Origin: Polyangiaceae bacterium
GTDB lineage: Bacteria > Myxococcota_A > Polyangia > Polyangiales > Polyangiaceae
Assembly (NCBI GenBank): GCA_015075635.1
Contig: JABTUA010000003.1
Coordinates: 434,001 to 498,000, forward strand
Direction of reading: 5' to 3'
DNA: 64,000 bases
Shown: positions 34,305-56,723 of the stretch, piece after piece
How the letters are laid out: the number at the start of each line of letters is the position of its first letter
How positions within the stretch are numbered: the first letter of the stretch is position 1
Notes under the pieces: model-generated
The model's input: the letters and a program-made list of their open reading frames with translations, nothing else
What the model was told of the DNA's origin: nothing
Database searches by the model: none
Program-made: the position numbers and the translations under genes

Positions 34305-34468
34305 GCATAACTCGACGTTGCACCCGCCGAACGCCGTGATGGCGTGTTTCACCGTCCGTTCCGCGTCGCGGGCGCTCTCACTGTCTGCGGCATTGCGCCC
34401 GCTCAGCTGCGCCTCGCGGTCTGATAAGATGATGCTCGGCGTTCGCGGGTGAACGCCGTTCGTTATAC
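34305..34468 (+). other. attC1
   Basis: R'' GCATAAC, R' GTTATAC, with arms pairing GTTGCACCCGCCGAACGCC to GGCGTTCGCGGGTGAAC. 164 bp. Confidence 0.9.
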
Positions 34469-34833
34469 CGCTGTCTCCTGACCGGAAACGATCACGCAAG
34501 ACCACCGCGCCGAGCCCGCTGTTCTCTCGACCCTGCGGTCTCAGAGTTCCTCCGCTTCGAACCAGCGCGGCCCAAGACCACAGCGGTTTGCCCGCGGTTG
34601 ATGATGGAAGTCTCTCACGCGGCCGGTCGCGCCATGCCGACCCCGACCGTGGTCGCGCTCGAGGACGAGCCGGCTGTTGAGCAGCCGCGCTGGGACCAAG
34701 ACAACGGCGCCTTGCCGACTGAACCGATCGACCAGAAGACGGGCGAGCTGTCGCGGAGCTCCGAGATCACGGCGTCGCGGCGCGCTGCGACGCCAACGGT
34801 CGCTGCTCCCCGAACAACCGTGGTTCCACCACG
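34463..34833 (+). repeat. Cassette 2: gene-less, divergent member of the non-coding cassette family
   Basis: It contains two copies of a CCAAGACmACrGCG-type module start (34571, 34697) followed by TTGCCCGCGGTTGA, TCGCGCTCGAGG and GAGCTCCGAGATCACGG blocks in the same order as the amplified 524-bp cassette. No credible gene. Confidence 0.6.
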
Positions 34834-34999
34834 GTATAACTCGCGTTCCACCCGCCGAACGCGCGCCTTGCTCTTTTCACCGTCCGTTCCGATGCCCGCG
34901 GGCGCCCTCACTGTCTGCGGCACTGCGCCCGCGCTGCTGCGCCTCGCGGTCTGGTAGGATGACCCCGGCGTTCGCGGGTGAACGCCCTACTCGTTATAC
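34834..34999 (+). other. attC2
   Basis: R'' GTATAAC, R' GTTATAC; 166 bp. The central hairpin and right arm closely match those of the amplified cassette, while the left-arm bases differ. Confidence 0.9.
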
Positions 35000-35518
35000 A
35001 GCTTTGTGGCTTCGCTGTTGGGCAGCGCCGCTCGTTCCGCCGGTCGAAGTTGTAGGTCTCCGCCGCTTCGCACAGCGCCCTGACGAGCCCCAGCCGTCGT
35101 CGCGCTCGCGGCGATGGCTGCTGCACCGCGCAAGACCACGGCGCCTTGCCCGCGGTTGAAGCTGACGGTCTCTGACGCTTCGCACAGCGCCGTGCCAAGC
35201 CCCCGCCGAGCTCGCGCTCGAGGCGGAGCTGACTGTTGAAGTTCGCGGCGCTGCGGCCAAGACCACGGCGCCATGACGACTGTACCGTTCGGACAAGCAG
35301 AGCCGAGCCCACGCGCCTCGCCACTGCTCCGAGAATCACCGTCGTGCCAAGACCTGTATAACTGGTCGTTGCACCCGCCGAACGCCGTTGTGGCCTTGCC
35401 CAAGCGTCCGTTCCGATGCCCGCGGGCGCCCTCACTGTCTGCGGCACTGCGCCCGCGCTGCTGCGCCTCGCGGTCTGGTAGGATGACCCCCGGCGTTCGC
35501 GGGTGAACGCCCTACTCG
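34994..35518 (+). repeat. Amplified gene-less cassette, copy 1 (cassette 3)
   Basis: Full 525-bp unit bounded exactly by the GTT crossover points of attC2 and attC3. It starts TTATACAGCTTTGTGGC and carries its own attC at 35356-35524. Near-identical to nine other copies; no gene is supported. Confidence 0.88.
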
Positions 35519-35524
35519 TTATGC
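35356..35524 (+). other. attC3
   Basis: Amplified-cassette attC; R'' GTATAAC, R' GTTATGC donated by cassette 4; 169 bp. Confidence 0.92.
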
Positions 35525-35552
35525 AGATTAATGCCTAAGCCCCTTGCTGCGC

Positions 35553-36056
35553 ATGTCCCCCTCTAACCCTCTTCACTTGATGTTGATCCTTGCCGCATCG
35601 GTCGGAGCCTGCGCAGCACAACAACCTCAACAGGCGCCGCCGCCGGCCGCACCGTCGACCGCGAGCGCTGCGGCGCCGGGTGCAAGCGACCCTGTCCGAG
35701 CCGGACCAAGCGCAAATCCATCAGGTGAGGCTTGCCGCGGCGTCGCAACCCCGCGGCTGGTCGACGAACTACGCGCCCGTACAACCGACACCCGCCTCTG
35801 TTACGAGCGTGCGCTCCGTGACAGCCCAGCTCTCGCCGGCCGTCTGGTCGTGAGCGTGCGTGTCACCGAGGACGGCTCTGTCGCCGCGGTGGAATTTCCT
35901 GAGGATGACCTACGGACCGACTCGGTTCGCGATTGCGCCCGGCAGATCTTTTTGCGGCCGTTCTCCACACCTCCCGAGCGGGGATGCCTCGTCGCGGTCG
36001 TGCCGATCCGGTTTAAGCCGAAACCACCTGCAGGCCCGACCGGTGCTGGTCCGTAG
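35553..36056 (+). CDS. AgmX/PglI C-terminal-like lipoprotein (cassette 4)
   Basis: The 167-residue protein has a signal peptide ending ASVGAC, a Pro/Ala-rich linker, then a domain (TRLCYERALRDSPALAGRL, VSVRVTEDGSVAAVEF) like the TonB-fold AgmX/PglI C-terminal domain found in many myxobacterial envelope proteins. Its presence as cassette cargo suggests capture from a myxobacterial host. ATG 35553 is preferred to an upstream TTG. The stop lies 31 bp before attC4. Confidence 0.7.
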   Translation: MSPSNPLHLMLILAASVGACAAQQPQQAPPPAAPSTASAAAPGASDPVRAGPSANPSGEACRGVATPRLVDELRARTTDTRLCYERALRDSPALAGRLVVSVRVTEDGSVAAVEFPEDDLRTDSVRDCARQIFLRPFSTPPERGCLVAVVPIRFKPKPPAGPTGAGP

Positions 36057-36086
36057 CATACGTGCCCGTCTGTGCTCCGACGCCCT

Positions 36087-36251
36087 GCATAACTCACGTT
36101 CCACCCGCCGAACGCCGGCCCTGCCGACTTCATTGTCCGTTCCGCGCCCGCGGGCGAACATTCTGATGCGGCACTCGCCCGCGTCTGTTGCGCCCTGCCG
36201 ACTGACGACTTGACGCTCGGCGTTCGCGGGTGAACGTGTGTCTCGTTATCC
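36087..36251 (+). other. attC4
   Basis: R'' GCATAAC (complement of cassette 4's own TTATGC start), R' GTTATCC; 165 bp. Confidence 0.9.
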
Positions 36252-36486
36252 AGCCGCACTTTAGCGCGCTGTTGTGCAGCGCCGCCAAGACCACGGCGCC
36301 TCGCTGACGGTTGAAGTTCGAAAGTCACTCGCGCGTTCCCACGCGTCCCGCGCACCCCAGACGTCTTGGCGCTGGAGGCGGAGCCACCGGTGACGAACCG
36401 GCGCTGCTCGCGGTCCATCGCGCTTTCGCCACTTTCACCGTCAGGAACCGACGAAGCACGGAACTTCACCGTCGATTTTCAACGCT
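36246..36486 (+). repeat. Cassette 5: short gene-less cassette with one family module
   Basis: CCAAGACCACGGCGCC at ~36285 followed by GACGGTTGAAGTTCG resembles one module of the amplified cassette. The remaining sequence shows no credible gene. Confidence 0.5.
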
Positions 36487-36652
36487 GGCTAACTCGACGT
36501 TGCACCCGCCGAACGCCGGTCTGGCCTTGCCCAAGCGTCCGTTCCACGACCGCGGGCGACCACTCTGTCTTCGGCACTCGCCCGCGGCTGTAGCGCCTCC
36601 CGCTCTGCTAAGATGCTCTCCGGCGTTCGCGGGTGAACGCCGTTCGTTATAC
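36487..36652 (+). other. attC5
   Basis: R'' GGCTAAC, R' GTTATAC; 166 bp. R'' differs by one base from the complement of cassette 5's first bases. Confidence 0.88.
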
Positions 36653-37171
36653 AGCTTTGTGGCTTCGCTGTTGGGCAGCGCCGCTCGTTCCGCCGGTCGA
36701 AGTTGTAGGTCTCCGCCGCTTCGCACAGCGCCCTGACGAGCCCCAGCCGTCGTCGCGCTCGCGGCGATGGCTGCTGCACCGCGCAAGACCACGGCGCCTT
36801 GCCCGCGGTTGAAGCTGACGGTCTCTGACGCTTCGCACAGCGCCGTGCCAAGCCCCCGCCGAGCTCGCGCTCGAGGCGGAGCTGACTGTTGAAGTTCGCG
36901 GCGCTGCGGCCGGGACCACGGCGCCATGACGACTGTACCGTTCGGACAAGCAGAGCCGAGCCCACGCGCCTCGCCACTGCTCCGAGAATCACCGTCGTGC
37001 CAAGACCTGTATAACTGGTCGTTGCACCCGCCGAACGCCGTTGTGGCCTTGCCCAAGCGTCCGTTCCGATGCCCGCGGGCGCCCTCACTGTCTGCGGCAC
37101 TGCGCCCGCGCTGCTGCGCCTCGCGGTCTGGTAGGATGACCCCCGGCGTTCGCGGGTGAACGCCCTACTCG
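36647..37171 (+). repeat. Amplified gene-less cassette, copy 2 (cassette 6)
   Basis: 525 bp, near-identical to copy 1; it shares the GGCCGGGACC variant with copy 11 (at ~36907) where the others read GGCCAAGACC. Confidence 0.88.
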
Positions 37172-37177
37172 TTAGGC
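37009..37177 (+). other. attC6
   Basis: Amplified-cassette attC; R' is the consensus GTTAGGC donated by cassette 7; 169 bp. Confidence 0.92.
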
Positions 37178-37183
37178 GGACAA

Positions 37184-37714
37184 GTGAGCCTCTCCAAGAA
37201 AGAGCGCCGTCGCCTCGCTGAGGAGGAACTCGACGCTCGTCAGCGGGCGCGCGCCAGCCGGTCCCCACTCACGCGCGAGGAGCTCGACGAGTTGTACGCC
37301 TTCGTCGCCGAGCGCGCATTTCGAGATGGCCGCGACAAGTCGCTTGCGCTCACCACGGAGTGGCTTACTTCCCACGACCGCGTGCCAGCGATCGCGTTCC
37401 TGAACGAACACGGGGTCGCGACGGACTGGGACGTGCTTGTCAACGCCGATCCATGCGCGCTATTTGGACCGACAGCGACCCGCCTTGCGCGCATGCCGCT
37501 CGAACCCGACCAGCTTCTGGCGCTCATTGATTCCATCGACACTCAAGTGCGGGCGGTCGGCTGCCAGCACGATCTACGGCTGACGCGAGCATGGCTTGAG
37601 GAGCGCGGGCTACCCACCGCACTCGTCGAGTTTGCGCTCATCGCTCAGGGCGGAGGCTGCGACTGCGAGGTCGTGCTCAATGTGGACCCGGAACGGATCT
37701 ACCCGGGCGAGTGA
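37184..37714 (+). CDS. DUF2695-like protein (cassette 7)
   Basis: The 176-residue soluble protein has a C-terminal unit CQHDLRLTRAWLEERG followed by CDCEVVLNVDP, the DUF2695 signature of Cys/His and a CDCE motif. A preceding degenerate repeat of the same fold (KSLALTTEWLTSHD, DWDVLVN) lacks the cysteines. The charged N-terminus (SKKERRRLAEEEL) is helical. It starts at GTG 37184, 6 bp after the crossover box, and stops 4 bp before the attC7 R'' box. Role unknown; metal binding is plausible. Confidence 0.65.
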   Translation: MSLSKKERRRLAEEELDARQRARASRSPLTREELDELYAFVAERAFRDGRDKSLALTTEWLTSHDRVPAIAFLNEHGVATDWDVLVNADPCALFGPTATRLARMPLEPDQLLALIDSIDTQVRAVGCQHDLRLTRAWLEERGLPTALVEFALIAQGGGCDCEVVLNVDPERIYPGE

Positions 37715-37718
37715 TGCC

Positions 37719-37886
37719 GCCTAACTCGCGTTCGACCCGCCGAGCGCCGGTCGTGGCGCGTTTCACCGTCCGTTCCGCGCCCGCGGGCGAACACTCTGTC
37801 TTCGGCACTCGCCCGCGTGCGTTCACGCCTTGCCGTCTGTTACGATGAGCCACGGCGCTCGCGGGTCAACGCGTGCCCCGTTATAC
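37719..37886 (+). other. attC7
   Basis: R'' GCCTAAC exactly complements cassette 7's TTAGGC start. The left arm GTTCGACCCGCCGAGCGCC pairs with GGCGCTCGCGGGTCAAC, leaving two extrahelical C. 168 bp. Confidence 0.93.
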
Positions 37887-38309
37887 AGCTTTGTGGCTTC
37901 GCTGTTGGGCAGCGCCGCTCACGCGACGCACAGCGCCTTGCCCGCGGTTGAAGCTGACGGTCTCAGACGCTTCGCACAGCGCCTTGCCAAGCCCCCACCG
38001 AGCTCGCGCTCGAAGCGGTGCCGACTGTCAAAGTTCGCGGCGCCGCATCCGAGACCACGGCGCCACGACGACTGGACCGTTCGGACAAGCAGAGCCGAGC
38101 CCACACGCCTCGCTACTTTTCCGGGAATTACCGCCGTGCCAAGACCTGTATAACTCGCGGTTGCTCCCGACGAACGCGGGTCTGGCCTTGCCCAACCGTC
38201 CGTTCCGCAACGGCCGGCGCCCTCTCTGTCTACGGCTTGCGCCGGCCTCGGATTACGCCTTGCCGTCTGTTACGATAGAGCCCGCGTTCGCGGGAGAACG
38301 CGACGATCG
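37881..38309 (+). repeat. Shortened divergent copy of the amplified cassette, copy 3 (cassette 8)
   Basis: It shares the first ~35 bp and the last two modules with the 524-bp unit but lacks ~95 bp near the start and has many substitutions. Its attC is also diverged, so it is an older relative rather than a recent copy. Confidence 0.8.
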
Positions 38310-38315
38310 TTATAC
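38148..38315 (+). other. attC8
   Basis: Diverged site; the stem uses CTCCCG paired with CGGGAG in place of CACCCG/CGGGTG, a compensatory change. R' GTTATAC; 168 bp. Confidence 0.88.
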
Positions 38316-38833
38316 AGCTTTGTGGCTTCGCTGTTGGGCAGCGCCGCTCGTTCCGCCGGTCGAAGTTGTAGGTCTCCGCCGCTTCGCACAGCGCCCTGAC
38401 GAGCCCCAGGCGTCGTCGCGCTCGCGGCGATGGCTGCTGCACCGCGCAAGACCACGGCGCCTTGCCCGCGGTTGAAGCTGACGGTCTCTGACGCTTCGCA
38501 CAGCGCCGTGCCAAGCCCCCGCCGAGCTCGCGCTCGAGGCGGAGCTGACTGTTGAAGTTCGCGGCGCTGCGGCCAAGACCACGGCGTCATGACGACTGTA
38601 CCGTTCGGACAAGCAGAGCCGAGCCCACGCGCCTCGCCACTGCTCCGAGAATCACCGTCGTGCCAAGACCTGTATAACTGGTCGTTGCACCCGCCGAACG
38701 CCGTTGTGGCCTTGCCCAAGCGTCCGTTCCGATGCCCGCGGGCGCCCTCACTGTCTGCGGCACTGCGCCCGCGCTGCTGCGCCTCGCGGTCTGGTAGGAT
38801 GACCCCGGCGTTCGCGGGTGAACGCCCTACTCG
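38310..38833 (+). repeat. Amplified gene-less cassette, copy 4 (cassette 9)
   Basis: 524 bp; first of three tandem copies. Point differences (for example GGCGTCATG at ~38584) separate it from its neighbours. Confidence 0.88.
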
Positions 38834-38839
38834 TTATAC
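38672..38839 (+). other. attC9
   Basis: Amplified-cassette attC, R' GTTATAC; 168 bp. Confidence 0.92.
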
Positions 38840-39357
38840 AGCTTTGTGGCTTCGCTGTTGGGCAGCGCCGCTCGTTCCGCCGGTCGAAGTTGTAGGTCTC
38901 CGCCGCTTCGCACAGCGCCCTGACGAGCCCCAGCCGTCGTCGCGCTCGCGGCGATGGCTGCTGCACCGCGCAAGACCACGGCGCCTTGCCCGCGGTTGAA
39001 GCTGACGGTCTCTGACGCTTCGCACAGCGCCGTGCCAAGCCCCGCCGAGCTCGCGCTCGAGGCGGAGCTGACTGTTGAAGTTCGCGGCGCTGCGGCCAAG
39101 ACCACGGCGCCATGACGACTGTACCGTTCGGACAAGCAGAGCCGAGCCCACGCGCCTCGCCACTGCTCCGAGAATCACCGTCGTGCCAAGACCTGTATAA
39201 CTGGTCGTTGCACCCGCCGAACGCCGTTGTGGCCTTGCCCAAGCGTCCGTTCCGATGCCCGCGGGCGCCCTCACTGTCTGCGGCACTGCGCCCGCGCTGC
39301 TGCGCCTCGCGGTCTGGTAGGATGACCCGCGGCGTTCGCGGGTGAACGCCCTACTCG
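38834..39357 (+). repeat. Amplified gene-less cassette, copy 5 (cassette 10)
   Basis: 524 bp; one C shorter in the CCAAGCCCC run near 39038, a single-base indel that argues against coding. Confidence 0.88.
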
Positions 39358-39363
39358 TTATAC
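39195..39363 (+). other. attC10
   Basis: Amplified-cassette attC, R' GTTATAC; 169 bp. Confidence 0.92.
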
Positions 39364-39880
39364 AGCTTTGTGGCTTCGCTGTTGGGCAGCGCCGCTCGTT
39401 CCGCCGGTCGAAGTTGTAGGTCTCCGCCGCTTCGCACAGCGCCCTGACGAGCCCAGCCGTCGTCGCGCTCGCGGCGATGGCTGCTGCACCGCGCAAGACC
39501 ACGGCGCCTTGCCCGCGGTTGAAGCTGACGGTCTCTGACGCTTCGCACAGCGCCGTGCCAAGCCCCGCCGAGCTCGCGCTCGAGGCGGAGCTGACTGTTG
39601 AAGTTCGCGGCGCTGCGGCCAAGACCACGGCGCCATGACGACTGTACCGTTCGGACAAGCAGAGCCGAGCCCACGCGCCTCGCCACTGCTCCGAGAATCA
39701 CCGTCGTGCCAAGACCTGTATAACTGGTCGTTGCACCCGCCGAACGCCGTTGTGGCCTTGCCCAAGCGTCCGTTCCGATGCCCGCGGGCGCCCTCACTGT
39801 CTGCGGCACTGCGCCCGCGCTGCTGCGCCTCGCGGTCTGGTAGGATGACCCCCGGCGTTCGCGGGTGAACGCCCTACTCG
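39358..39880 (+). repeat. Amplified gene-less cassette, copy 6 (cassette 11)
   Basis: 523 bp; carries two single-base deletions relative to copy 1 (near 39451 and 39561). Confidence 0.88.
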
Positions 39881-39886
39881 TTATGC
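39718..39886 (+). other. attC11
   Basis: Amplified-cassette attC, R' GTTATGC from cassette 12; 169 bp. Confidence 0.92.
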
Positions 39887-40233
39887 CGGTGTGACCCAAG
39901 ACCCACGGCGCCTTGCCGACTGTCTTTGCGGTCTCAGATTCAGAGTTCCTCCGCTTCGAGGCGGGAGGCAGCGCGGCCGAGCCCACGGCGCGTTGCCCGC
40001 GGTTGACGCCGAAAGTCTCTCACGCGTCCGGTCGCGCCATGACGACCCCGACCGTCATCGCGGTGGCGCACGAGCCGATTGTTGAACGAGCCGCGCTGCG
40101 ACCAAGGCCGCGGCGCCTTGCCGACCGTAGCGCGCAGAGCAGAAGCCGGGCCAGCTGGCGCCGAGCTCCGAGATCACGGCGCCACGCCGCACGGTGGCGC
40201 CCACGGCTTCGCGCCCTGAACCACCGACGCACG
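39881..40233 (+). repeat. Cassette 12: gene-less, divergent member of the non-coding family
   Basis: CCCAAGACCCACGGCGCC (39895), GAGCCCACGGCGCGTTGCCCGCGG (in part, 39979) and CCAAGGCCGCGGCGCC (40100) mark three module starts in the same order as cassette 2. GAGCTCCGAGATCACGG is shared with cassette 2. No credible gene. Confidence 0.6.
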
Positions 40234-40400
40234 GCATAACTCGCGTTCCACCCGCCGAACGCGCGCCATGGCGAGTTTCACCGTCCGTTCCGCGGCGGCC
40301 GGCGCCCTCTCTGTCTACGGCTTGCGCCGGCCTGCGAAAACGCCGCGCTGTCTGTTACGATGTTCTCGCGCGTTCGCGGGTGAACGCGCATCCGTTATAC
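40234..40400 (+). other. attC12
   Basis: R'' GCATAAC complements cassette 12's TTATGC start; R' GTTATAC; 167 bp. Confidence 0.9.
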
Positions 40401-40712
40401 AGATCAGATTCTTCCGTCGAGGAGGGCAGCGCTGCGAACCAGCACCGCCGCGACTCCATCACCGCCGTAAGTCACTCACGCCTCCGGTCGCGCTTTGCCA
40501 AGCCCCGACCGTCGTGCCGCTCGAGGCCGTGCCCACTGCGAAGAAGGCGGCGCTGCTTGGTGGCCCAACGCGGCGGCGCTTCCTGTTTCGTCCTCGAACG
40601 CCGAGCAACCAGAACCGCGCAGCGCTGAACCCGAGCTCCAAGACCACGGCGCTGCGACAAACGGCGACGCCAGGAGCCTCAGTGCCCAGAATCACCGAGT
40701 TTCCTGCGCACT
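40395..40712 (+). repeat. Cassette 13: gene-less, more distant member of the non-coding family
   Basis: It has GTCACTCACGC, CCAAGCCCCGACCGTCGTG and CCAAGACCACGGCGCTG blocks in family order, ending CAGAATCACCG like the amplified unit. No credible gene. Confidence 0.5.
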
Positions 40713-40879
40713 GTATAACTTGTCGTTCCACCCGCCGAACGCCGGCTATGCCCTGTTTCACCGTCCGTTCCGCGCCGGCGGGCGACACACTGTCTGCGGC
40801 ACTCGCCCGCCTCTGCGACGCCTCGCGCTCTGCTAAACTCAGGACCCGGCGTTCGCGGGTGAACGCCAATTCGTTATAC
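40713..40879 (+). other. attC13
   Basis: R'' GTATAAC, R' GTTATAC; 167 bp. Confidence 0.9.
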
Positions 40880-40902
40880 CGCTGGCCCGACCTGACGCGT
40901 CG

Positions 40903-41754
40903 TCACTCCATCCAGCCCGAGTTGAACAGCACAACGTACTCATCGCTGGATGGGTCCTGGGCTCCCACTGATGGCCGATATCGGAGCAAGACGATGTCGT
41001 AGCCCCCGATCTGCGCGAGCCCCGATGGCAGCGCTGTCGCGCGTACGCGCTTCAACGCCTTGTCGATCTCCCCCGCAGGCAGCGGCAGGCCTCCGGTCCC
41101 GAGATCGAAGCTCCGAACCTTGGGGAGCGAGACCGGCGCGCAGTCCTCGCCCAGCGGATCGTGCAGCCAGGTTTTCGGCCATTTGATATCGCCCTTCCCG
41201 GCCCACACGATCCCTCCGCCGAACACGGTGAGTCCGGTCCTTGCGCTCACGACCGCAGCGCCGCCGAAGTCCAGTGGCTCAACGAGAAAGACCCAGGCGT
41301 CCGCGGGCGCCGGGCCGGAGAGCAACACGCCACTGCCGAACCCGGTGTCCTGCTGCGCTGTCGCGCGCGCGGCTAGCTCGTCGGGGGGCGCGTACGTCCC
41401 GCACACCCACTGATGACCCAAGAGCGTCAGCGTGGTTTGTGTGAAGCGAACGATGATCGTACACGACCCAACAATCTGAGCCTTCTTCGCAATCGCTTTG
41501 GCCACCTCCGAGCAGCTGGGCGTGCCGCCCGCATCGGCAGTAGAACCGCCGCTTGCGCCGGCGCCCGCTGTTCCTCCCGTCGCGCCACTGCCGGTCGTCG
41601 CGCCGCTGGCCACCGTCCCGCCGCTCCCGGCCGCAGCACCAGAACCGGTCGCGTGTCCACCGCCGCCCCCGCTCCCACCGCTCGCGCTGCCCTCGTCTCG
41701 GACTTGGCCGCCGCAGTTGGCAACCAAGAGTCCGATGAGAAGCGCGCCGCGCAC
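40903..41754 (-). CDS. Lipoprotein with Gly/Ala/Ser/Thr linker (cassette 14, reverse orientation)
   Basis: The 283-residue protein has a lipobox (LLIGLLVANC), a ~60-residue GSGG/GATTGSG linker and a ~200-residue mature domain rich in strands (IVRFTQTTLTLLGHQWVCG, then GGGIVWAGKGDIKW). No family was recognised. It is transcribed against the attC orientation, so it probably has its own promoter in 41755-41912. The Gly-rich lipoprotein style is that of the host's own genes. Confidence 0.65.
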   Translation of the reverse strand: MRGALLIGLLVANCGGQVRDEGSASGGSGGGGGHATGSGAAAGSGGTVASGATTGSGATGGTAGAGASGGSTADAGGTPSCSEVAKAIAKKAQIVGSCTIIVRFTQTTLTLLGHQWVCGTYAPPDELAARATAQQDTGFGSGVLLSGPAPADAWVFLVEPLDFGGAAVVSARTGLTVFGGGIVWAGKGDIKWPKTWLHDPLGEDCAPVSLPKVRSFDLGTGGLPLPAGEIDKALKRVRATALPSGLAQIGGYDIVLLRYRPSVGAQDPSSDEYVVLFNSGWME

Positions 41755-41912
41755 ACGAGAAAGCTAGCACTTTGGTCGAGCAAGCTCATCCACCGTTCCA
41801 TCTCGCCGCGAGGCGGCATCAGCCGACGCGGTCGCCGTCGGCCAGATCAACGCGCAATGACGCGCCGCCCGCCAAGGGTCTCTGCTCCCCGAACTACCGT
41901 GCTGCCACCACG

Positions 41913-42080
41913 GTATAACTCGCGTTCGACCCGCCGAGCGCCGGCAGTGGCGAATTTCACCGCCCGTTCCGCGCCCGCGGGCGACCACTCTGTCTTCGGC
42001 ACTCGCCCGCGTGCGTTCACGCCTTGCCGTCTGTTACGATGACCTACGGCGCTCGCGGGTCAACGCGTGCCCCGTTATAC
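41913..42080 (+). other. attC14
   Basis: R'' GTATAAC, R' GTTATAC; the arms match attC7 closely. The ~40 bp just before it resemble the end of cassette 2. 168 bp. Confidence 0.9.
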
Positions 42081-42599
42081 AGCTTTGTGGCTTCGCTGTT
42101 GGGCAGCGCCGCTCGTTCCGCCGGTCGAAGTTGTAGGTCTCCGCCGCTTCGCACAGCGCCCTGACGAGCCCCAGCCGTCGTCGCGCTCGCGGCGATGGCT
42201 GCTGCACCGCGCAAGACCACGGCGCCTTGCCCGCGGTTGAAGCTGACGGTCTCTGACGCTTCGCACAGCGCCGTGCCAAGCCCCCGCCGAGCTCGCGCTC
42301 GAGGCGGAGCTGACTGTTGAAGTTCGCTGCGCTGCGGCCAAGACCACGGCGCCATGACGACTGTACCGTTCGGACAAGCAGAGCCGAGCCCACGCGCCTC
42401 GCCACTGCTCCGAGAATCACCGTCGTGCCAAGACCTGTATAACTGGTCGTTGCACCCGCCGAACGCCGTTGTGGCCTTGCCCAAGCGTCCGTTCCGATGC
42501 CCGCGGGCGCCCTCACTGTCTGCGGCACTGCGCCCGCGCTGCTGCGCCTCGCGGTCTGGTAGGATGACCCGCGGCGTTCGCGGGTGAACGCCCTACTCG
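42075..42599 (+). repeat. Amplified gene-less cassette, copy 7 (cassette 15)
   Basis: 525 bp; near-identical, with TTCGCTGCGCTG at ~42323 in place of TTCGCGGCGCTG. Confidence 0.88.
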
Positions 42600-42605
42600 T
42601 TATGC
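42437..42605 (+). other. attC15
   Basis: Amplified-cassette attC, R' GTTATGC from cassette 16; 169 bp. Confidence 0.92.
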
Positions 42606-42631
42606 AGACAACACGCCGTCGAGAAGAAGCG

Positions 42632-43081
42632 ATGCCCAGTTCCTCGCTACCGCTCCTCTTCTTGCTCGTCGGCTTGGTCTCTTGTTCTGGTTCCACGAAG
42701 TCGAGTGATTCCAACGGCACCGACACCGAAAAGCTCTGCTTTTTGATGTGCAAGAAACTCGCCACGGGCGGGTGCCCGGAGGCCAAATCGGGAAGTTACA
42801 AGGACTGCGGGGAACCTTGCATCGAGCAGTGGCACAATTGCGATGCATGGCCTGAGCTGGTGGCTTGCCTCGATCAATTCGAATCCTATTCCTGCGCGGG
42901 CGAACCCGCCTGCGCGGCTCCGATGAAATCGGTACTCGCGTGCGCCGGGCCCCCGCCGGACGCTGGGCTGGTCGACTGCGTTCCCGGCCAACCCGTGCCC
43001 GCCTGCGTCTGCGATGGTGGCACAGGTCCCGTCAAGGTGTGCGGCCCTTCGGGAAAGACGGAGCCGTGCGCGTGCCCCTAG
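42632..43081 (+). CDS. Cysteine-rich lipoprotein (cassette 16)
   Basis: The 149-residue protein has a signal peptide ending LLVGLVSCSG (lipobox) and a mature part with 16 or so cysteines in CxxxC spacings (LCFLMCKKL, CGEPCIEQWHNC). The start at ATG 42632 is preceded by GAGAAGAAG. Only 17 bp separate the stop from attC16. The function is unknown; cysteines suggest a disulphide-stabilised surface protein. Confidence 0.65.
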   Translation: MPSSSLPLLFLLVGLVSCSGSTKSSDSNGTDTEKLCFLMCKKLATGGCPEAKSGSYKDCGEPCIEQWHNCDAWPELVACLDQFESYSCAGEPACAAPMKSVLACAGPPPDAGLVDCVPGQPVPACVCDGGTGPVKVCGPSGKTEPCACP

Positions 43082-43098
43082 GCTCGCCACGAATCACT

Positions 43099-43263
43099 GC
43101 ATAACTCACGTTGCACCCGCCGAACGCCGGCCCTGCCGACATCACCGTCCGTTCCGCTTCCGCGGGCGAACATTCTGATGCGGCACTCGCCCGCGTCTGT
43201 CGCGCCTTGCCGACTGACGACTTGACGCTCGGCGTTCGCGGGTGAACGTGTGTCTCGTTATGC
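43099..43263 (+). other. attC16
   Basis: R'' GCATAAC complements cassette 16's TTATGC start; R' GTTATGC; 165 bp. Confidence 0.92.
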
Positions 43264-43275
43264 GGCGGCAGAGCC

Positions 43276-43896
43276 ATGCTCGACGGTCTTGATGACATCG
43301 ACTGGGGTTGCCTCACTCACGCCTACGGACCGGCATCGGACGTACCTGGCCTCATTCGCGGGCTCTTGTCGGCTGACAAGCCTCAACGCGACTCAGCGCT
43401 TCGAGAACTCTTCTCGAGCATCTGGCATCAAGGCACGGTCTACGAGGCCGCGATTCACGCTCTCCCTTTCTTGATCGAGCTCCTCGGAGCTCCCGATGAG
43501 CAGACGCCCGATCGCGAGTCCGTCGCACTCCTGGTCGCGTCCATTGTTGGCGGGCGCGGCTACTTTGAGGTTCATCACACGCGGGAGCTGATCAACCCCT
43601 TCACTCGCGAGCCCATGCCACCACCACCGGACCTGGACGAGCGACTCGCGGCGGAGCGCGTCATCGTTGCCGAGGTTCGGCGGCGTGGCGAACGCGCCAT
43701 TCCTCTTCTTGTCCCCTACTTGAAGCACGAGGAACCCGACATCCGCCGCTCCGTGGCTGAGGCCATTTCGTGCTACCCAAGGTTGTCAGCGACAACCGTG
43801 CCCGCCCTGCATGACGCGCTCGCCACCGAGACGGATGACGAAACGCGGACTGCGCTGAACGCTGCGTTGACCGCAGTCGCGTCGGGCCCCGCATAA
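43276..43896 (+). CDS. HEAT-like repeat protein (cassette 17)
   Basis: The 206-residue all-helical protein opens DGLDDIDWGCLTHAYGPASD and has helix pairs such as AAIHALPFLIELLG and RAIPLLVPYLKHEEPDIRR, characteristic of HEAT/PBS-lyase-like repeats in bacterial proteins that begin with a similar HAYG motif. The TAA stop is part of the attC17 R'' box (GCATAAC), the compact layout typical of cassettes. It is probably a protein-binding scaffold. Confidence 0.7.
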   Translation: MLDGLDDIDWGCLTHAYGPASDVPGLIRGLLSADKPQRDSALRELFSSIWHQGTVYEAAIHALPFLIELLGAPDEQTPDRESVALLVASIVGGRGYFEVHHTRELINPFTREPMPPPPDLDERLAAERVIVAEVRRRGERAIPLLVPYLKHEEPDIRRSVAEAISCYPRLSATTVPALHDALATETDDETRTALNAALTAVASGPA

Positions 43897-44056
43897 CTTG
43901 ACGCTGCAGCAGCCGAGCGCCGGTCAGGCGAGTTTCAGCGTCCGTCCCACGGCGGCGGGCGACCACTCTGTCTTCGGCACTCGCCCGCCTCTGCGGCGCC
44001 CCGCGCTCTGCTACGATGTTCTCCAGCGCTCGCTGCTGAGCGCAAATTCGTTATAC
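43891..44056 (+). other. attC17
   Basis: The stem is CAGCAG paired with CTGCTG instead of GACCCG/CGGGTC, with extrahelical G and C kept. This two-sided compensatory change shows selection for the fold. R' GTTATAC; 166 bp. Confidence 0.92.
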
Positions 44057-44575
44057 AGCTTTGTGGCTTCGCTGTTGGGCAGCGCCGCTCGTTCCGCCGG
44101 TCGAAGTTGTAGGTCTCCGCCGCTTCGCACAGCGCCCTGACGAGCCCCAGCCGTCGTCGCGCTCGCGGCGATGGCTGCTGCACCGCGCAAGACCACGGCG
44201 CCTTGCCCGCGGTTGAAGCTGACGGTCTCTGACGCTTCGCACAGCGCCGTGCCAAGCCCCCGCCGAGCTCGCGCTCGAGGCGGAGCTGACTGTTGAAGTT
44301 CGCGGCGCTGCGGCCAAGACCACGGCGCCATGACGACTGTACCGTTCGGACAAGCAGAGCCGAGCCCACGCGCCTCGCCACTGCTCCGAGAATCACCGTC
44401 GTGCCAAGACCTGTATAACTGGTCGTTGCACCCGCCGAACGCCGTTGTGGCCTTGCCCAAGCGTCCGTTCCGATGCCCGCGGGCGCCCTCACTGTCTGCG
44501 GCACTGCGCCCGCGCTGCTGCGCCTCGCGGTCTGGTAGGATGACCCCCGGCGTTCGCGGGTGAACGCCCTACTCG
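44051..44575 (+). repeat. Amplified gene-less cassette, copy 8 (cassette 18)
   Basis: 525 bp; first of a tandem pair. Confidence 0.88.
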
Positions 44576-44581
44576 TTATAC
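44413..44581 (+). other. attC18
   Basis: Amplified-cassette attC, R' GTTATAC; 169 bp. Confidence 0.92.
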
Positions 44582-45100
44582 AGCTTTGTGGCTTCGCTGT
44601 TGGGCAGCGCCGCTCGTTCCGCCGGTCGAAGTTGTAGGTCTCCGCCGCTTCGCACAGCGCCCTGACGAGCCCCAGCCGTCGTCGCGCTCGCGGCGATGGC
44701 TGCTGCACCGCGCAAGACCACGGCGCCTTGCCCGCGGTTGAAGCTGACGGTCTCTGACGCTTCGCACAGCGCCGTGCCAAGCCCCCGCCGAGCTCGCGCT
44801 CGAGGCGGAGCTGACTGTTGAAGTTCGCGGCGCTGCGGCCAAGACCACGGCGCCATGACGACTGTACCGTTCGGACAAGCAGAGCCGAGCCCACGCGCCT
44901 CGCCACTGCTCCGAGAATCACCGTCGTGCCAAGACCTGTATAACTGGTCGTTGCACCCGCCGAACGCCGTTGTGGCCTTGCCCAAGCGTCCGTTCCGATG
45001 CCCGCGGGCGCCCTCACTGTCTGCGGCACTGCGCCCGCGCTGCTGCGCCTCGCGGTCTGGTAGGATGACCCCCGGCGTTCGCGGGTGAACGCCCTACTCG
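44576..45100 (+). repeat. Amplified gene-less cassette, copy 9 (cassette 19)
   Basis: 525 bp; second of a tandem pair, apparently identical to copy 8 by eye. Confidence 0.88.
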
Positions 45101-45106
45101 TTAGGC
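44938..45106 (+). other. attC19
   Basis: Amplified-cassette attC, R' GTTAGGC from cassette 20; 169 bp. Confidence 0.92.
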
Positions 45107-45144
45107 GGACCGCAGCACTGCCGTTTCGATTGATCGGCGCGGCG

Positions 45145-45627
45145 CTACTCGTCGGGCGGCGGCGAGAACGGCACCGGCGCCGGCAACGCTTCGCAGTACG
45201 CCACCGCGTCCTCGAGCAACCGTCCGAACACCACATGGATTTCTGCGTTGTTCGTCCCTTTGCCGTGGTCCATCACCGCTTGCACGTCCAGGGCGATTCG
45301 CTTCCGCGCATCATCGCCGAATACGCGCGCATCCGGGAGCGTCGCTCCGAGAAACCTTGCTAGGTTCTCGTAGTAGTCGCCGCGGTACCAGTTGACGCTC
45401 CCGTTCCGACGCTCCTCGCTGGCAAGTCGCGCCACAGCTCGGATCACCTCGCCCTGGACCGTCTCACTCGGGCCCTCATCTGGCACGAGATCGAAGTGTA
45501 GCCGGGCGAAGCGACGCATTCGGTCGTCGAAGTCCGTCGCCCCGGTGTCATGGTACTTCAGCAACGCGACATGGTGAGCAACATCCGCCTCCATGTCGGC
45601 GCGGCTCTGCGAACCCGACATCCACAA
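45145..45627 (-). CDS. Hypothetical protein (cassette 20, reverse orientation)
   Basis: The 160-residue soluble protein (for example DFDDRMRRFARLHFDLVPDE, VNWYRGDYYENLARFLG) shows no signal peptide or recognised domain. Start uncertain between 45627 and the internal ATG at 45621. It opposes the attC orientation. It lies wholly inside one cassette bounded by TTAGGC and a GCCTAAC R'' box. Confidence 0.55.
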   Translation of the reverse strand: MWMSGSQSRADMEADVAHHVALLKYHDTGATDFDDRMRRFARLHFDLVPDEGPSETVQGEVIRAVARLASEERRNGSVNWYRGDYYENLARFLGATLPDARVFGDDARKRIALDVQAVMDHGKGTNNAEIHVVFGRLLEDAVAYCEALPAPVPFSPPPDE

Positions 45628-45658
45628 AACAGTACCATGTCGAGTTCCCTGTTGAGCC

Positions 45659-45826
45659 GCCTAACTCGCGTTCGACCCGCCGAGCGCCGGTATTGGCGAG
45701 TTTCACCGTTCGTTCCGCGCCCGCGGGCGAACACTCTGTCTTCGGCACTCGCCCGCGTGGGTTCACGCCCCGCGCTCTGTTACGATGAGCCACGGCGCTC
45801 GCGGGTCAACGCGTGCCCCGTTATTC
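45659..45826 (+). other. attC20
   Basis: R'' GCCTAAC complements cassette 20's TTAGGC start; R' GTTATTC; 168 bp. Confidence 0.92.
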
Positions 45827-45835
45827 GGCCGACCA

Positions 45836-46336
45836 CTACTCCCAGCCGATCATCCCAACCACCCTGAAGTTCCCGACTTCCACAGTGCCGGTCGCGTTGG
45901 GACCTGGCTCCGCGGGCACTCCGCATGCTCCATTCCCGCCCATTCTGTATTCGCGCATCAGTTGGTCCTCGTGGACCTTCTTGTGCTGGGTCACTTCCAG
46001 TGTGCACCCACCCCCCGGAGTGCTCCAGCTGGTGCCAGCGCTCGCCTCGCTAACCGCGACCACGGTGGGAAATATCCCAGTCGCTCCCTCCGACACCCCG
46101 TCGAGCGTGAACGCGAGCTTCAACTCCCCGACATCCATGAACGTCACCACCGTCCGAGGGCCGGGCGGGTATACGCCGCTCCCGCCGCACGCGTGTGAAC
46201 CGTCCGCTTGAACCGCGACGGCGCCGGTCAACTTGATCGTCAACGCACAGCCATCTTCGGCGGGCGAGTCCTCGTTCGCGCCGCACGCTGCGCAGTGCCA
46301 CGCGCAAGCTACGACTCCGGCCCTCAACCACTTCAT
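45836..46336 (-). CDS. Putative lipoprotein (cassette 21, reverse orientation)
   Basis: The 166-residue protein starts MKWLRAGVVACAWHCAACGA, a signal peptide with lipobox-like AAC. A beta-rich mature domain with paired cysteines follows (CALTIKLTGAV, PRTVVTFMDVGELKLAFTL). It is reverse to attC and occupies almost the whole cassette. No family was recognised. Confidence 0.6.
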   Translation of the reverse strand: MKWLRAGVVACAWHCAACGANEDSPAEDGCALTIKLTGAVAVQADGSHACGGSGVYPPGPRTVVTFMDVGELKLAFTLDGVSEGATGIFPTVVAVSEASAGTSWSTPGGGCTLEVTQHKKVHEDQLMREYRMGGNGACGVPAEPGPNATGTVEVGNFRVVGMIGWE

Positions 46337-46421
46337 GGCCCGAATCTAGCAGCTGGCTAGGTCGGGCGTCACGTCGGACAGTCGACCGAACCTTCGCTTC
46401 ACCCACGCGCAAGCGACTGCC

Positions 46422-46588
46422 GCATAACTGGACGTTGCACCCGACGAACGCCGGCCACGCCTTGCCCCAGCGTCCGTTCCGCCGCGCGGGCGAACACACT
46501 GTCTTCGGCACTCGCCCGCGTTTACAGCGCCGCGCCGTCTGCTAGCTTCGGATCTCGGCGTTCGCGGGTGAACGCCAATTCGTTATAC
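46422..46588 (+). other. attC21
   Basis: R'' GCATAAC, R' GTTATAC; left arm ACCCGACGAACGCC has extrahelical A. 167 bp. Confidence 0.9.
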
Positions 46589-47106
46589 AGCTTTGTGGCT
46601 TCGCTGTTGGGCAGCGCCGCTCGTTCCGCCGGTCGAAGTTGTAGGTCTCCGCCGCTTCGCACAGCGCCCTGACGAGCCCCAGCCGTCGTCGCGCTCGCGG
46701 CGATGGCTGCTGCACCGCGCAAGACCACGGCGCCTTGCCCGCGGTTGAAGCTGACGGTCTCTGACGCTTCGCACAGCGCCGTGCCAAGCCCCCGCCGAGC
46801 TCGCGCTCGAGGCGGAGCTGACTGTTGAAGTTCGCGGCGCTGCGGCCAAGACCACGGCGCCATGACGACTGTACCGTTCGGACAAGCAGAGCCGAGCCCA
46901 CGCGCCTCGCCACTGCTCCGAGAATCACCGTCGTGCCAAGACCTGTATAACTGGTCGTTGCACCGCCGAACGCCGTTGTGGCCTTGCCCAAGCGTCCGTT
47001 CCGATGCCCGCGGGCGCCCTCACTGTCTGCGGCACTGCGCCCGCGCTGCTGCGCCTCGCGGTCTGGTAGGATGACCCCCGGCGTTCGCGGGTGAACGCCC
47101 TACTCG
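46583..47106 (+). repeat. Amplified gene-less cassette, copy 10 (cassette 22)
   Basis: 524 bp; one C is missing in the attC left arm (GCACCGCCGAAC at ~46960), which should weaken the stem. Confidence 0.88.
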
Positions 47107-47112
47107 TTATAC
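46945..47112 (+). other. attC22
   Basis: Amplified-cassette attC with a 1-bp deletion in the left arm; R' GTTATAC; 168 bp. Confidence 0.9.
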
Positions 47113-47631
47113 AGCTTTGTGGCTTCGCTGTTGGGCAGCGCCGCTCGTTCCGCCGGTCGAAGTTGTAGGTCTCCGCCGCTTCGCACAGCGCCCTGACGAG
47201 CCCCAGCCGTCGTCGCGCTCGCGGCGATGGCTGCTGCACCGCGCAAGACCACGGCGCCTTGCCCGCGGTTGAAGCTGACGGTCTCTGACGCTTCGCACAG
47301 CGCCGTGCCAAGCCCCCGCCGAGCTCGCGCTCGAGGCGGAGCTGACTGTTGAAGTTCGCGGCGCTGCGGCCGGGACCACGGCGCCATGACGACTGTACCG
47401 TTCGGACAAGCAGAGCCGAGCCCACGCGCCTCGCCACTGCTCCGAGAATCACCGTCGTGCCAAGACCTGTATAACTGGTCGTTGCACCCGCCGAACGCCG
47501 TTGTGGCCTTGCCCAAGCGTCCGTTCCGATGCCCGCGGGCGCCCTCACTGTCTGCGGCACTGCGCCCGCGCTGCTGCGCCTCGCGGTCTGGTAGGATGAC
47601 CCCCGGCGTTCGCGGGTGAACGCCCTACTCG
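47107..47631 (+). repeat. Amplified gene-less cassette, copy 11 (cassette 23)
   Basis: 525 bp; shares the GGCCGGGACC variant with copy 2, suggesting that these two derive from one another. Confidence 0.88.
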
Positions 47632-47637
47632 TTAGGC
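47469..47637 (+). other. attC23
   Basis: Amplified-cassette attC, R' GTTAGGC from cassette 24; 169 bp. Confidence 0.92.
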
Positions 47638-47643
47638 GGACCG

Positions 47644-48234
47644 ATGGGGTGGCTTCTCCTTCTTGGCGTTGTTGGATTTGCCTGCTTGTTCGTGGCTGCG
47701 CCGTGGGGACCCATTCCTTCGACAACTTTTCGGGCGCGCGCCGCGCTGTTGGCGCTCTCCACGCTTTGCCTGACATCGGAGGCTACGGCGCAGCAGGACA
47801 GTCGCGCGAACTTGGCGCCAGAATCCGGCGCTCGCCAGTCTGAACACCGCCCTGACATCACATTGACCATCGTTGGTGCGGCGATGTTCGTTGTTCCGTA
47901 CGTCGCTGGAGTCGGATATGCCACGTTCACCGAATCAGCGCCGCGGGGCATGGATCCCCAGCCGCTCTACGTGCCGATCCTCGGTCCGGTGCTTGCGATT
48001 CGGGGCGTCGGCTGCGACGACAACGCTGATGCCTCGTGTTCGACGTCGGGTGGAGCGGGCACATGGGCGCTTTTGGTGCTGGACAGCGTCCTTCAAGCGA
48101 CCGGGGTTGTGATCGCAGTCGTCGGACTCTCGAAGCACAAAGAGGTCCGGGTTCGACACCGTCAGAGCATTCGCGTCCTTCCACATCCGACCGGTGTCGG
48201 GCAGTACGGAGTCAGCGCCTGGGGTGTCTTCTAG
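47644..48234 (+). CDS. Membrane protein of an array-specific family (cassette 24)
   Basis: The 196-residue protein has an N-terminal transmembrane helix or signal (LLLLGVVGFACLFVAA), a second hydrophobic segment before TAQQDSR, and two C-terminal segments (IVGAAMFVVPYVAGVGYATF; TWALLVLDSVLQATGVVIAVVG). The C-terminal part resembles the truncated gene at 62063-62383 in order of segments and in VVP, P-x-GP-L and GVV/GLVV motifs. Function unknown. Confidence 0.6.
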   Translation: MGWLLLLGVVGFACLFVAAPWGPIPSTTFRARAALLALSTLCLTSEATAQQDSRANLAPESGARQSEHRPDITLTIVGAAMFVVPYVAGVGYATFTESAPRGMDPQPLYVPILGPVLAIRGVGCDDNADASCSTSGGAGTWALLVLDSVLQATGVVIAVVGLSKHKEVRVRHRQSIRVLPHPTGVGQYGVSAWGVF

Positions 48235-49453: not shown

Positions 49454-50955
49454 GTGGACGGGCTGGAAGCGCTGCGCAAGGAGAACGCCGAGCTCCGTGC
49501 GCAAGTCGCGCAGCTCCTCACCGAGCTGGCACGGCTCAACGATCGCGTCTCGGGCTGCTCGCGGTAGCGCAGCGCAAGCAGCGAAAGGCTCCTGCTCCCG
49601 GCGCTGCAGCGCCAGCCGCTGCCCGCCCGTCGTCGAGGGAGAAGCCCAGCGTGCTTTCGAGGAGCGGCCCAAGGCCCCGGACAAGCCTGCCGCCGAGCCT
49701 CCGCCGAAGAAGAAGGCGAGGCCAACGGGGCGCAAGCCGATCCCCAGCCACCTCGAAGCCGAAGAGCACGAGCTCCGCCCCGATGCGTGCGGCGAGTGCG
49801 GCGGAGCTGCCCTGGACGTCGTCGACGAGCTCGTCGAGGAGAAGCTCCACGTCGTCAAGGAACACCAGCGCCGGCGCGTCGTTCGTCGCTACACGTGTCG
49901 CTGTCGCGAGTGTGGCGAGCGCACGACGCTGCGCTCTCTGCCTGCCCCTTACGAGCGCTCCAGGTCACCTGCGAGTGGCTCGCGTGGCTCGTGTACCAGA
50001 AGTTCTGGCTGCTCACGCCGCTCGACCGCATCCGGCGCGACCTCGCCGAGCGCGGAGTCCCGATCGCGATGAGCACGCTGGTGACCTTCATCGAGCGCGC
50101 TGCCGACCTGCTGTCGGGCATCGACGGTTTGCACTGGAAGCAGCTGCTCGCCGGCTCCTGGATGGCTACCGACGGCACCGGGTTGAAGGTCATCATCAAG
50201 AAGCTTCCCGCTGCGCACAACGGTTACGTGGAGCTCTACCGCAACCACGACGTCGCGGTCTTTCAGTACGAGCCGACAAGAGCGGCGAGGTCGTCGCCGC
50301 GAAGCTCAGACCCTTCCGAGGTACCCTCACCGCCGATGCCGAGCATCGCTTCAACGACGTCTTCGCTTCAGGCCGCGTGCTCGAGGCCGGGTGCAACGCC
50401 CACGGCCGTCGCAAGTTCCGTGACGCAGAAGACACCCAGCCGGTGCTCGCTCTCGAAGGCGGCGCCTTCCTGGGCGCGATCTACGGCGAAGAGGGAGAGG
50501 CGCAGAAGCTCGGCCTGGTCGGAGAGGCGCTCAGAGAACATCGCCAGCGGTGCATTCGCCCCATCGTCCAGGACTTCGAGCGCTGGCGCGACGCCGTCGA
50601 GCCGACGCTCTTGCCCTCCGAGCCGCTGGCGGCGGCGATTCGGTACTACAAGAACCATCGGGACGCGCTCTTCCGTTTCGTCGACGACCCGCTGGTCCCC
50701 ATCGACAACTCTCCCACCGAGCGCGAGTTTCAGAACGTCGCCAAGCTGCGCCTCAACATGCTCTTCGCCGGCAGCACGGAAGGCGCCCACCGTGCTTGCG
50801 TGCTCCTCGGCATCATCGCCACCTGTCGAGCTCTAGGTGTCCCTGCGCAGGCCTATCTCACCTGGGCCTTCGAGCGCCTCGGGACCCACCGCGATGTCTT
50901 CGCGCTGCCGCTCGAGGCCCTGACCCCCGCCGCGTTCAAGAAGACCCTCGGCTGA
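49454..50955 (+). pseudogene. tnpC: IS66 transposase TnpC, multiply frameshifted
   Basis: The expected order of IS66 TnpC domains is present but spread over three frames: coiled coil LEALRKENAELRAQVAQLL, a zinc-finger part PDACGECGGAALDVVDE, DDE core KQLLAGSWMATDGTGLKVII, then GCNAHGRRKFRD and the C-terminal RYYKNHRDALFRFVDD with LVPIDNSPTEREFQNVAKLR. At least three frameshifts (near 49545, 49960 and 50276) make it non-functional. Confidence 0.82.
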
Positions 50956-51253
50956 GCCCCACGCACGATTCCACCCGCCGCGCATCCCGGCGTCGCTGAT
51001 CGGTCACTTAACAACGAACATGGACCGCGCGCGTCTCGCCGGGACCGCCGTGATCTCCGCAACCGAAGTTGGACCTGCCACGGATTCGATTGCACTCGCC
51101 TTCCAGATGCGGGCCATTCCGAAGCTCGCACTGGACACCTTCGTCCGTGCACTCGACGAGTCCGAAATGACAGAGCTCGAGCTCGCGACAGACGAAGCCC
51201 TAGGGCGACTTGATCCGGACCCGTGAACGCCCGCCGCACCGTCGCCGCCTAAC

Positions 51254-52869
51254 TGCCATGAAGTGACCCAGTCAAGCAGCGCCACGTGTTCTCCCGTTAC
51301 CTTTTCGTATTCTAGCTCCTGATCCTGATGGGTGAGAGGTTCGAAGACCGAAGTAGACCAACGACGCGAGGGCGCTTCGACGACGAATCACACTGCCATT
51401 CGCGGGTTGCGGCTGCGAAGCCGTAGAGCCGCATGATCGTTCTCCGTCGGGAGGAGCGCCTACTCACGGCGCGGGTTTGGGGCCGAAGCCCCTACCGCAG
51501 AGTTAGGTCGCGCGTTTCTCCTTTCGTGCCTCGCGGCGCTGGCCTGCTTCGATCTTCGAGGATTTCTTCGTGCGACGCGCATTCGAGCGCGGCGCGGCGC
51601 TCATGGCGGCACCCGAGGCTTGTGTCGACGTGCGGACGCGGTGACGCGCGGGCTGGCGGTCTTCGCGCAGCGCAGCCCACATGAAGCCAACGAGCTCGCG
51701 AGCAACGGCGATGACGACTTTGTTCTTCGCCTTCCCGCGCTCGGCGAGGCGGCGGAAGCGCACGGTGAGGCGACGCTGCGCTTCGTCGGCGATCGTGAGC
51801 ACGCTCTCGGGCTGCCCTTCGCGGCGCAGACGGAGCTTGCGCCCGACACCTGCGCGTCGACCATACTGCCAGGCCGCTTGCACGATGGCGCGCCGGACGT
51901 GCCCGTTGCCGGTCTTGGTGATCCCGCCGCGTCGCGTGGTGTCGGCGCTTGAGTGGACACTGGGCACGAGCCCGAGGTACGCAGCGAGCTCGCGTGGCGA
52001 TTCGAAACGATCGACGCCGTGGATCTCCGCGACGAAGATCATCGCGATGACCGTGTCGACGCCGCGGAAGCAGCGCAGCCACGCGACGTGCTCGCGATAC
52101 AGCGGATGCCGTGCAGCCTGCTCGAGCGCGTGGTCCATCGCCGTGAGGCGTCGCTCCGCTTGCTCGATGGCCAGCGTGTATTCTGCAAATACCACGCGAT
52201 CCGTCTCGTTCTCGAAGCTGACGGCGGCGAGCCATGCGCGATGAGCAGCGCTCCAGAGACCGCTGGTCGAATTGAAGACATGGCCTCGACGCACGAGCAT
52301 TTGACGAGCCGGTGACGGCATCGTCCGAGATCCGCACGCACGTCTTCGCGACAACGACAGAGATCGCGGATGGCCTCTTGTTCCGGCGTTGGCGGGCTGA
52401 CCATCGTGAGCATGCCCGCTCGATACAGCTCGGCGAGCTTGCGCGCATCTCGGCGATCCGTCTTGACCCGCTCGCCCGGCTTGCGCGGAATGAGCGACGG
52501 AGCAACGACCTCGCACACGACCGGACCCGCCGCTTCGAGTCGCCGTTGAAGCGCATACCCGCAGGGCCCCGCCTCGTAGCAGATGCGGACCTCTCCCCCG
52601 CCAGCGTCGCGCTCCAGGCGCCTCACGAGCCTGCGGATGGATCGCTCGTCGTTCTCCAGCGTGAATTCCTCCGCCTCCTGCCTCCCCGGATGGAGAACCG
52701 CGATGACCAGCGTCTTCTTGTGCGCGTCCACCCCGACCCACGTGATACATCCCTTCATTGACCGGCTCCCTTCGCTTGCGGCTCTGGCGCAAGTTAACCC
52801 GCGATACTCGCGTGGGCGCCTAACGGCTTCTCACGACCTCGCGATCGGAGCCGGTCACTTCATACGTAC
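51254..52869 (-). mobile_element. IS1111/IS110-type insertion sequence in attC24, copy A
   Basis: 1616 bp, near-identical to copy B (56724-58340) and inserted directly after the AAC of the R'' box, exactly as copy B is. Subterminal inverted ATGAAGTGACC motifs lie at both ends, and no target duplication is evident. A long non-coding end follows the transposase gene. A one-base deletion breaks the transposase. Confidence 0.88.
51503..52758 (-). pseudogene. IS110-family transposase, frameshifted copy A
   Basis: The sequence matches copy B except for a missing T near 52301 (GAGCATTTGACG instead of GAGCATTTTGACG), which breaks the frame after ~150 residues. The N-terminal DEDD-type part (WVGVDAHKKTLVIAVL) and the C-terminal Transposase_20-like part (TTRRGGITKTGNGHVRRAIV) are both recognisable in separate frames. 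Confidence 0.85.
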
Positions 52870-53123
52870 TCACGTTCCACCCGCCGAACGCCGGTCTTGC
52901 CGACTTCACCGTGCGTTCCGCTTCCGCGGGCGAACATTCTGATGCGGCACTCGCCCGCGTCTGTGTCGCCGCGCGCACTGCCGACTTGACGCTCGGCGTT
53001 CGCGGGTGAACGTGGTTCCGTTATGCAGACACGCCGCACTGCTAGCCGGTGCATCTCGCGTAGTCTGCTACGCTGAAGCTCATTGTGTGGCTTGGAGTGC
53101 GGGTCTTTCCCTTGTTCATCGGT

Positions 53124-56404: not shown

Positions 56405-56722
56405 GTGGCAGATCAACCCTCAGTTCCAAAACGCTCGGCCAAGCCGTTGATCGTCACCGGTCTGGCATTCTTCGCGGCTGCCATCACCGCGCTTGTCGCC
56501 TGGAGCTCGGCAGCATTCGCCGCGTGGCAGACTGCACTCCGACCCCAGACACGTACCATGACCCTTCAGGAGGCCCGGGAGCAGTACCAACTCGCCATAA
56601 CAATCTCCAAGGCGAGCGCCGCCGCCGCTCTGTTACTCCTGCTCCTGCTGGCCTTCCTCTTCTGGCGCCGCGCGAGATCCAAGGCCCCCGCACCCAAGGA
56701 TGCCAACGGCGATGCCGCCTAA
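56405..56722 (+). CDS. Small protein with two transmembrane helices (cassette 27)
   Basis: The 105-residue protein has hydrophobic helices LIVTGLAFFAAAITALVAW and ASAAAALLLLLLLAFLFW joined by a short polar loop (TMTLQEAREQYQ), with a basic tail. It starts at GTG 56405. The TAA stop is embedded in the attC27 R'' box (GCCTAAC). No family was recognised. Confidence 0.55.
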   Translation: MADQPSVPKRSAKPLIVTGLAFFAAAITALVAWSSAAFAAWQTALRPQTRTMTLQEAREQYQLAITISKASAAAALLLLLLLAFLFWRRARSKAPAPKDANGDAA

Positions 56723-56723
56723 C

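Follow-up and report, generated by a model that had tools for sequence, protein, structure and literature searches.

The question raised by this locus is why an array of integron cassettes holds a single cassette without a gene in ten near-identical copies. The window analyzed here (the whole stretch of 64,000 nucleotides, C3:434001-498000) belongs to a genome of 9.47 Mb in five contigs. A search with an attC profile located 30 attC sites on the forward strand of the window (34305 to 63313, the last two incomplete), and 83 sites in one array on contig C1; smaller clusters are present at C1:3.42M, C2:1-5k, and C2:1.556M. Of the 134 attC matches in the arrays analyzed, 133 share the orientation of their own array. 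No integrase-family match above the cut-off was obtained in the window, and its array would therefore be an integrase-less cluster that is served, if at all, in trans. A complete IntI gene is located on a contig other than that of the window, at C1:667804-668748. Its product scores 450.7 bits against TIGR02249 (cut-off, 265), matches the solved Vibrio IntI (PDB accession number 2A3V) over the full length, and contains the tyrosine-recombinase motifs, and its relatives in a wider contig scan are at most 65% identical and come from many phyla. The first cassette of the C1 array starts at C1:668922, directly after GGTAGAATGTTAG. With intI adjoining attI and an array of 83 attC sites, C1 thus carries a chromosomal integron. 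The array shares the direction of intI and lies on its 3' side, so that the gene points into it (region C1:667804-669000); this arrangement is inverted relative to that of class 1 integrons.

The window copies of the cassette, hereafter the 524 type, are all on the forward strand and occupy six places. Single copies are found at 34994-35518, 36647-37171, and 42075-42599, and tandem copies are found at three places, i.e., three at 38310-38833, 38834-39357, and 39358-39880, two at 44051-44575 and 44576-45100, and two at 46583-47106 and 47107-47631. The ten starts given in the first-pass annotation, as well as that of a 429-bp relative at 37881, are correct to the base, and its statement that the copies are bounded exactly by crossover points also holds, since each is cut between the G and the TT of an attC. 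The first letters of each copy, TTATACAGCTTTG, directly adjoin the G of the attC before it, and the last, CTACTCG, are followed by the next TTA. Six copies are 525 bp long, three are 524 bp, and one is 523 bp. The cassette is composed of a non-coding body of approximately 363 bp and an attC of approximately 163 bp (34994-35355 and 35356-35518, respectively, in the first copy). These boundaries and copies bear out the view of a gene-less integron cassette that was reinserted repeatedly, in part in tandem. The genome holds an eleventh copy outside the window, in a different array (C1:720761-721284); it is 100% identical to the copy at 34994. Matches to the 524 type within the genome are limited to arrays. 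In the alignment of the 11 copies, 10 of 525 columns are variable, the mean pairwise difference is 2.4, and 7 of the 55 pairs are identical. The copy number is far beyond chance. Sublineage markers are common to copies that are not adjacent: an AA-to-GG change at aligned columns 266-267 is shared by the copies at 36647 and 47107, and a G at aligned column 497 is shared by those at 38834 and 42075, as would be expected from repeated movement or conversion.

The cassette ends at the R' crossover and carries an attC with paired R and L boxes, and the attC has a long L''/L' stem with compensatory changes. The L'' arm is broken by unpaired columns 16 and 23, which are the extrahelical bases, while the opposite L' arm is continuous. 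R'' and R' are complementary, and in more than one-third of all cassettes they pair over 9 bp without a mismatch. A hyper-recombinogenic attC had been suggested as a cause of the amplification; however, the bottom-strand folding energy per nucleotide of the 524-type attC is -0.288, compared with -0.284 ± 0.022 for the other 114 sites. This ordinary value lends no support to a special attC, which was rejected.

The 524 type is not an isolated element. Clustering showed that 48 of the 128 attC-to-attC cassettes have homologous gene-less bodies of approximately 244 to 382 nt, which are divided into several branches. The ten window copies are real, as the first-pass annotation had it, but they represent only one branch of a gene-less superfamily and not one amplified cassette. 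The attI-proximal cassette at C1:668922 is a 49th member, and the superfamily takes more than one-third of the cassette slots of the integron. Further members on the forward strand of the window are the 429-bp sister cassette (37881-38309), which is without a segment of approximately 95 to 100 nt that is present in the 524 type; a relative with a 380-nt body and a hybrid attC (34463-34993); a member with a 245-nt body (36246-36646); a member with a 358-nt body (39881-40394); and a 326-type member (40395-40873), a near-identical copy of which is present in the C1 array (C1a:57256-57735).

Among 60 genomes of the taxonomic family, clear superfamily matches are confined to three genomes of the source genus; one weak match elsewhere in the 60 (E value of 8e-4) is doubtful, and a search of plasmids and phages gave no relatives. 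Many homologous copies, with relatives limited to close relatives, define a family comparable to the paralogous non-coding cassettes of Vibrio. The cassette nearest attI belongs to the superfamily in each of the three genomes of the genus (G000 C1:668922, the source genome; G001 C12:1-112; G002 C83:1-113), and those of the two genus-mates come from other branches. The contigs of both genus-mates break off within this gene-less cassette, at nearly the same position. One genus-mate has 43 attC matches with three superfamily matches and the other has 20 with one; these superfamily counts are lower bounds, because the fragmented assemblies end inside such cassettes. A body of the 296 branch is 86% identical over 296 nt between the source genome and a genus-mate, whereas fourfold-degenerate sites of intI agree at approximately 59% in the same pair. 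This conservation may reflect either constraint on the body or transfer of cassettes between the species.

Other contents of the window array were also noted. A cassette gene encoding a DUF2695 domain is located at 37184-37714. PIN-domain genes are present at 55777-56169, 58506-58919, 59406-59819, and 62519-62941, some of which adjoin small ORFs and resemble toxin-antitoxin cassettes. Insertion sequences are clustered in the distal part of the array. Two IS110-family insertions (51240-52870 and 56720-58340) are 98.9% identical to each other and share one insertion point, which directly follows the R'' box of an attC (TAACTGCCATGAAGTGACC ... GGTCACTTCATACGTACTCACG) and resembles that of attC-targeting IS1111-like elements, and IS66 and DDE transposase genes are found in oversized cassettes at 49787-50836, 53116-54000, and 60652-61836.

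Traces of exchange can be read in two members. The first 40 nt and the core are common to the 429-bp sister and the 524 type, and the additional segment of the latter is similar to the 296-branch core. The 524 type therefore looks like a chimera of two superfamily members. In the cassette at 34463-34993, the body and the 5' arm of attC differ by one mismatch from a C1-array cassette (C1a:35645-36178), and the attC then switches at ...CCGTTCCG to the 3' half of the 524 type, with one missing base. The next cassette is a 524 copy, and the hybrid is therefore most simply read as the product of a homologous crossover inside attC that deleted a neighboring 524 copy.

What the body might do, if anything, was considered at the level of the family. 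Long open frames in the 524 copies (e.g., 100 amino acids on the minus strand) might point to a protein encoded by a conserved frame; such frames are, however, expected at 68% G+C. The family-level comparison provides strong evidence against coding. Substitutions are distributed nearly evenly over the three phases, in the 245 group (609/622/628) as in the other groups, 225 of 242 indels in within-group pairwise comparisons have a length that is not a multiple of three, stops occur in all six frames across the members, and a Pfam search of the long frames in gene-less bodies gave no match. A protein reading frame is thus rejected, and we consider a protein product extremely unlikely. The bodies are gene-less in that they contain no ORF under coding selection; a stricter published definition, which requires that no ORF exceed 150 or 210 bp, does not literally hold, since ORFs that arise by chance are long at such a G+C content. 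The first-pass annotation had excluded a shared frame on the basis of single-base indels among the copies. Its conclusion stands at the family level, but the argument itself is weak because those indels occur in some copies only and lie within C runs, and they could be sequencing errors. C runs are the usual site of error in long reads. The same indels, the near-identity of the repeats, and the fact that contig C2 begins within an array are also what might be expected if repeats had been misassembled into extra copies. On the other hand, every copy group has different unique neighbors on both sides, the copies carry private as well as shared substitutions, a further copy is present on another contig, and misassembly is likelier to collapse copies than to add them; an assembly artefact is very unlikely. 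The conservation of a body without a coding signal would also suit a regulatory RNA transcribed from it, as would the inverted repeat GCAGCGC...GCGCTGC that is found in most members, and folding and covariance had been proposed as a check. Covariation on alignments A1 and A2 was at first suggestive for an outer stem and for GCAGCGC/GCGCTGC. However, the fully pairing pairs near the top are the outer R''/R' pairs of attC, and no internal pair rises above a null simulated on the tree. Excess folding stability was not observed, with mean z-scores of -0.38 for one strand and -0.40 for the other, as in gene bodies, and an Rfam search gave no match up to an E value of 0.1. With neither covariation above this null nor excess folding, a structured RNA is unsupported, and a regulatory RNA appears improbable. 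The known sRNA-Xcc1 cassette of Xanthomonas is similar in that a cassette holds a non-coding element, and it carries a symE gene as well (discussed in PMC12444791); the gene-less superfamily differs in that a structural RNA signal was not found.

A further explanation is promoter supply: the cassettes would be retained and amplified for promoters that transcribe the cassettes behind them, which lie a long way from the promoter of the integron itself. Cassettes without a gene are likewise found within arrays of Vibrionaceae (PMC11014356) and among ORF-less oral cassettes (PMC6557892), and promoter activity was measured in these systems. Most of the 29 gene-less Vibrio cassettes drive a sense-strand reporter, and their promoters cannot be predicted in silico from the sequence (PMC11014356). 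Five of the six 524 groups are followed by an ORF cassette, four of these on the forward strand, and the conservation of the bodies between species would fit such a role. The placement of the superfamily in the source genome, however, gives no such hint: across the genome, 13 members stand before forward genes, compared with 14.2 expected, and members instead tend to follow each other (23 observed versus 18.6 expected, P = 0.06). A scan of 34994-47700 for sigma-70-like sites found none, though, as noted, such promoters were not predictable in Vibrio. Promoter supply as the reason for the multiplication is doubtful, though not negligible. The gene-less cassettes might also spread by themselves as a pool of recombination sites, serving both as landing pads and as donors from which new gene cassettes would obtain their attC. 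There are 3' halves of attC that are at least 99% identical between gene-less and gene-bearing cassettes, and these, together with the hybrid attC, are compatible with such a role; they are equally compatible with ordinary homogenization of attC within the genome, and we give the donor role only a small chance.

The explanation that we consider best, with a probability of roughly 0.62, is that the cassettes are copied by IntI, are multiplied and lost by homologous exchange, and persist as cheap passengers. IntI would excise or copy a cassette via the folded bottom strand of its attC and use attI or a different attC for its insertion. Replication would resolve the junction, so that the donor can be kept and copies build up; one-strand, replicative resolution of cassette junctions is described in a review (PMC8946536), and we infer that it applies to these cassettes. 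The window array, which has no integrase of its own, would receive copies in trans, and tandem copies would then grow and shrink by homologous exchange, inside attC too. The cassettes would persist mainly as short, cheap passengers or by selfish spread and not through an encoded product, and in places promoter activity that reads into the following cassettes may add value. A cassette-level selfish or near-neutral element, one of the possibilities raised at the outset, remains the best reading, as gene-less cassettes are over-duplicated: 25 of 48 have a near-identical copy (95% identity), compared with 6 of the 80 other cassettes (P = 2e-8). When the 524 type is left out, 14 of 37 gene-less cassettes are duplicated (P = 1e-4). 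When the 524 type is again left out and the comparison is limited to gene cassettes of at most 900 bp, the difference weakens (P = 0.002 at 95% identity) and is not significant at 99% (P = 0.10), and cassette size could account for part of the over-duplication. Passenger or selfish spread is favored by this over-duplication, the ordinary attC, the absence of preferential placement before forward genes, and replicative resolution. The conservation between species could mean function and so count against passengers, yet cassette transfer explains it equally well. The superfamily also looks much rarer in the genus-mates, which counts against the passenger reading, although their assemblies are fragmented. 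The movement by IntI is deduced from the sequences, and homologous recombination alone could explain the tandem runs.

The phenomenon is already known from Vibrio. Chromosomal integron arrays of Vibrio contain 6 to 49% non-coding cassettes, and one non-coding family has 45 copies in V. vulnificus CMCP6 and 34 in YJ016 (Boucher et al. 2006, PMC1382264). Selfish or regulatory explanations were already proposed for that family (PMC1382264), and the present finding is therefore not new in kind. As judged from its description, the Vibrio family resembles the superfamily in its homologous gene-less bodies, in its many copies per array, and in the limitation of its relatives to closely related integrons (PMC1382264). 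The superfamily differs in that it occurs in another host lineage and is spread over several arrays, one of its branches is near-identical and partly in tandem, and its chimeric branches, like the hybrid attC, are directly readable. The traces of copying and exchange are unusually clear in this lineage, and the history of the copies can be read from the shared variants and the hybrid attC. The genome thus represents a second system, outside Vibrio, in which homologous cassettes without a gene make up more than one-third of the total. It touches on the open questions of why integrons hold such cassettes and of how gene cassettes originate, and it makes promoter supply versus cassette-level selfishness directly testable.
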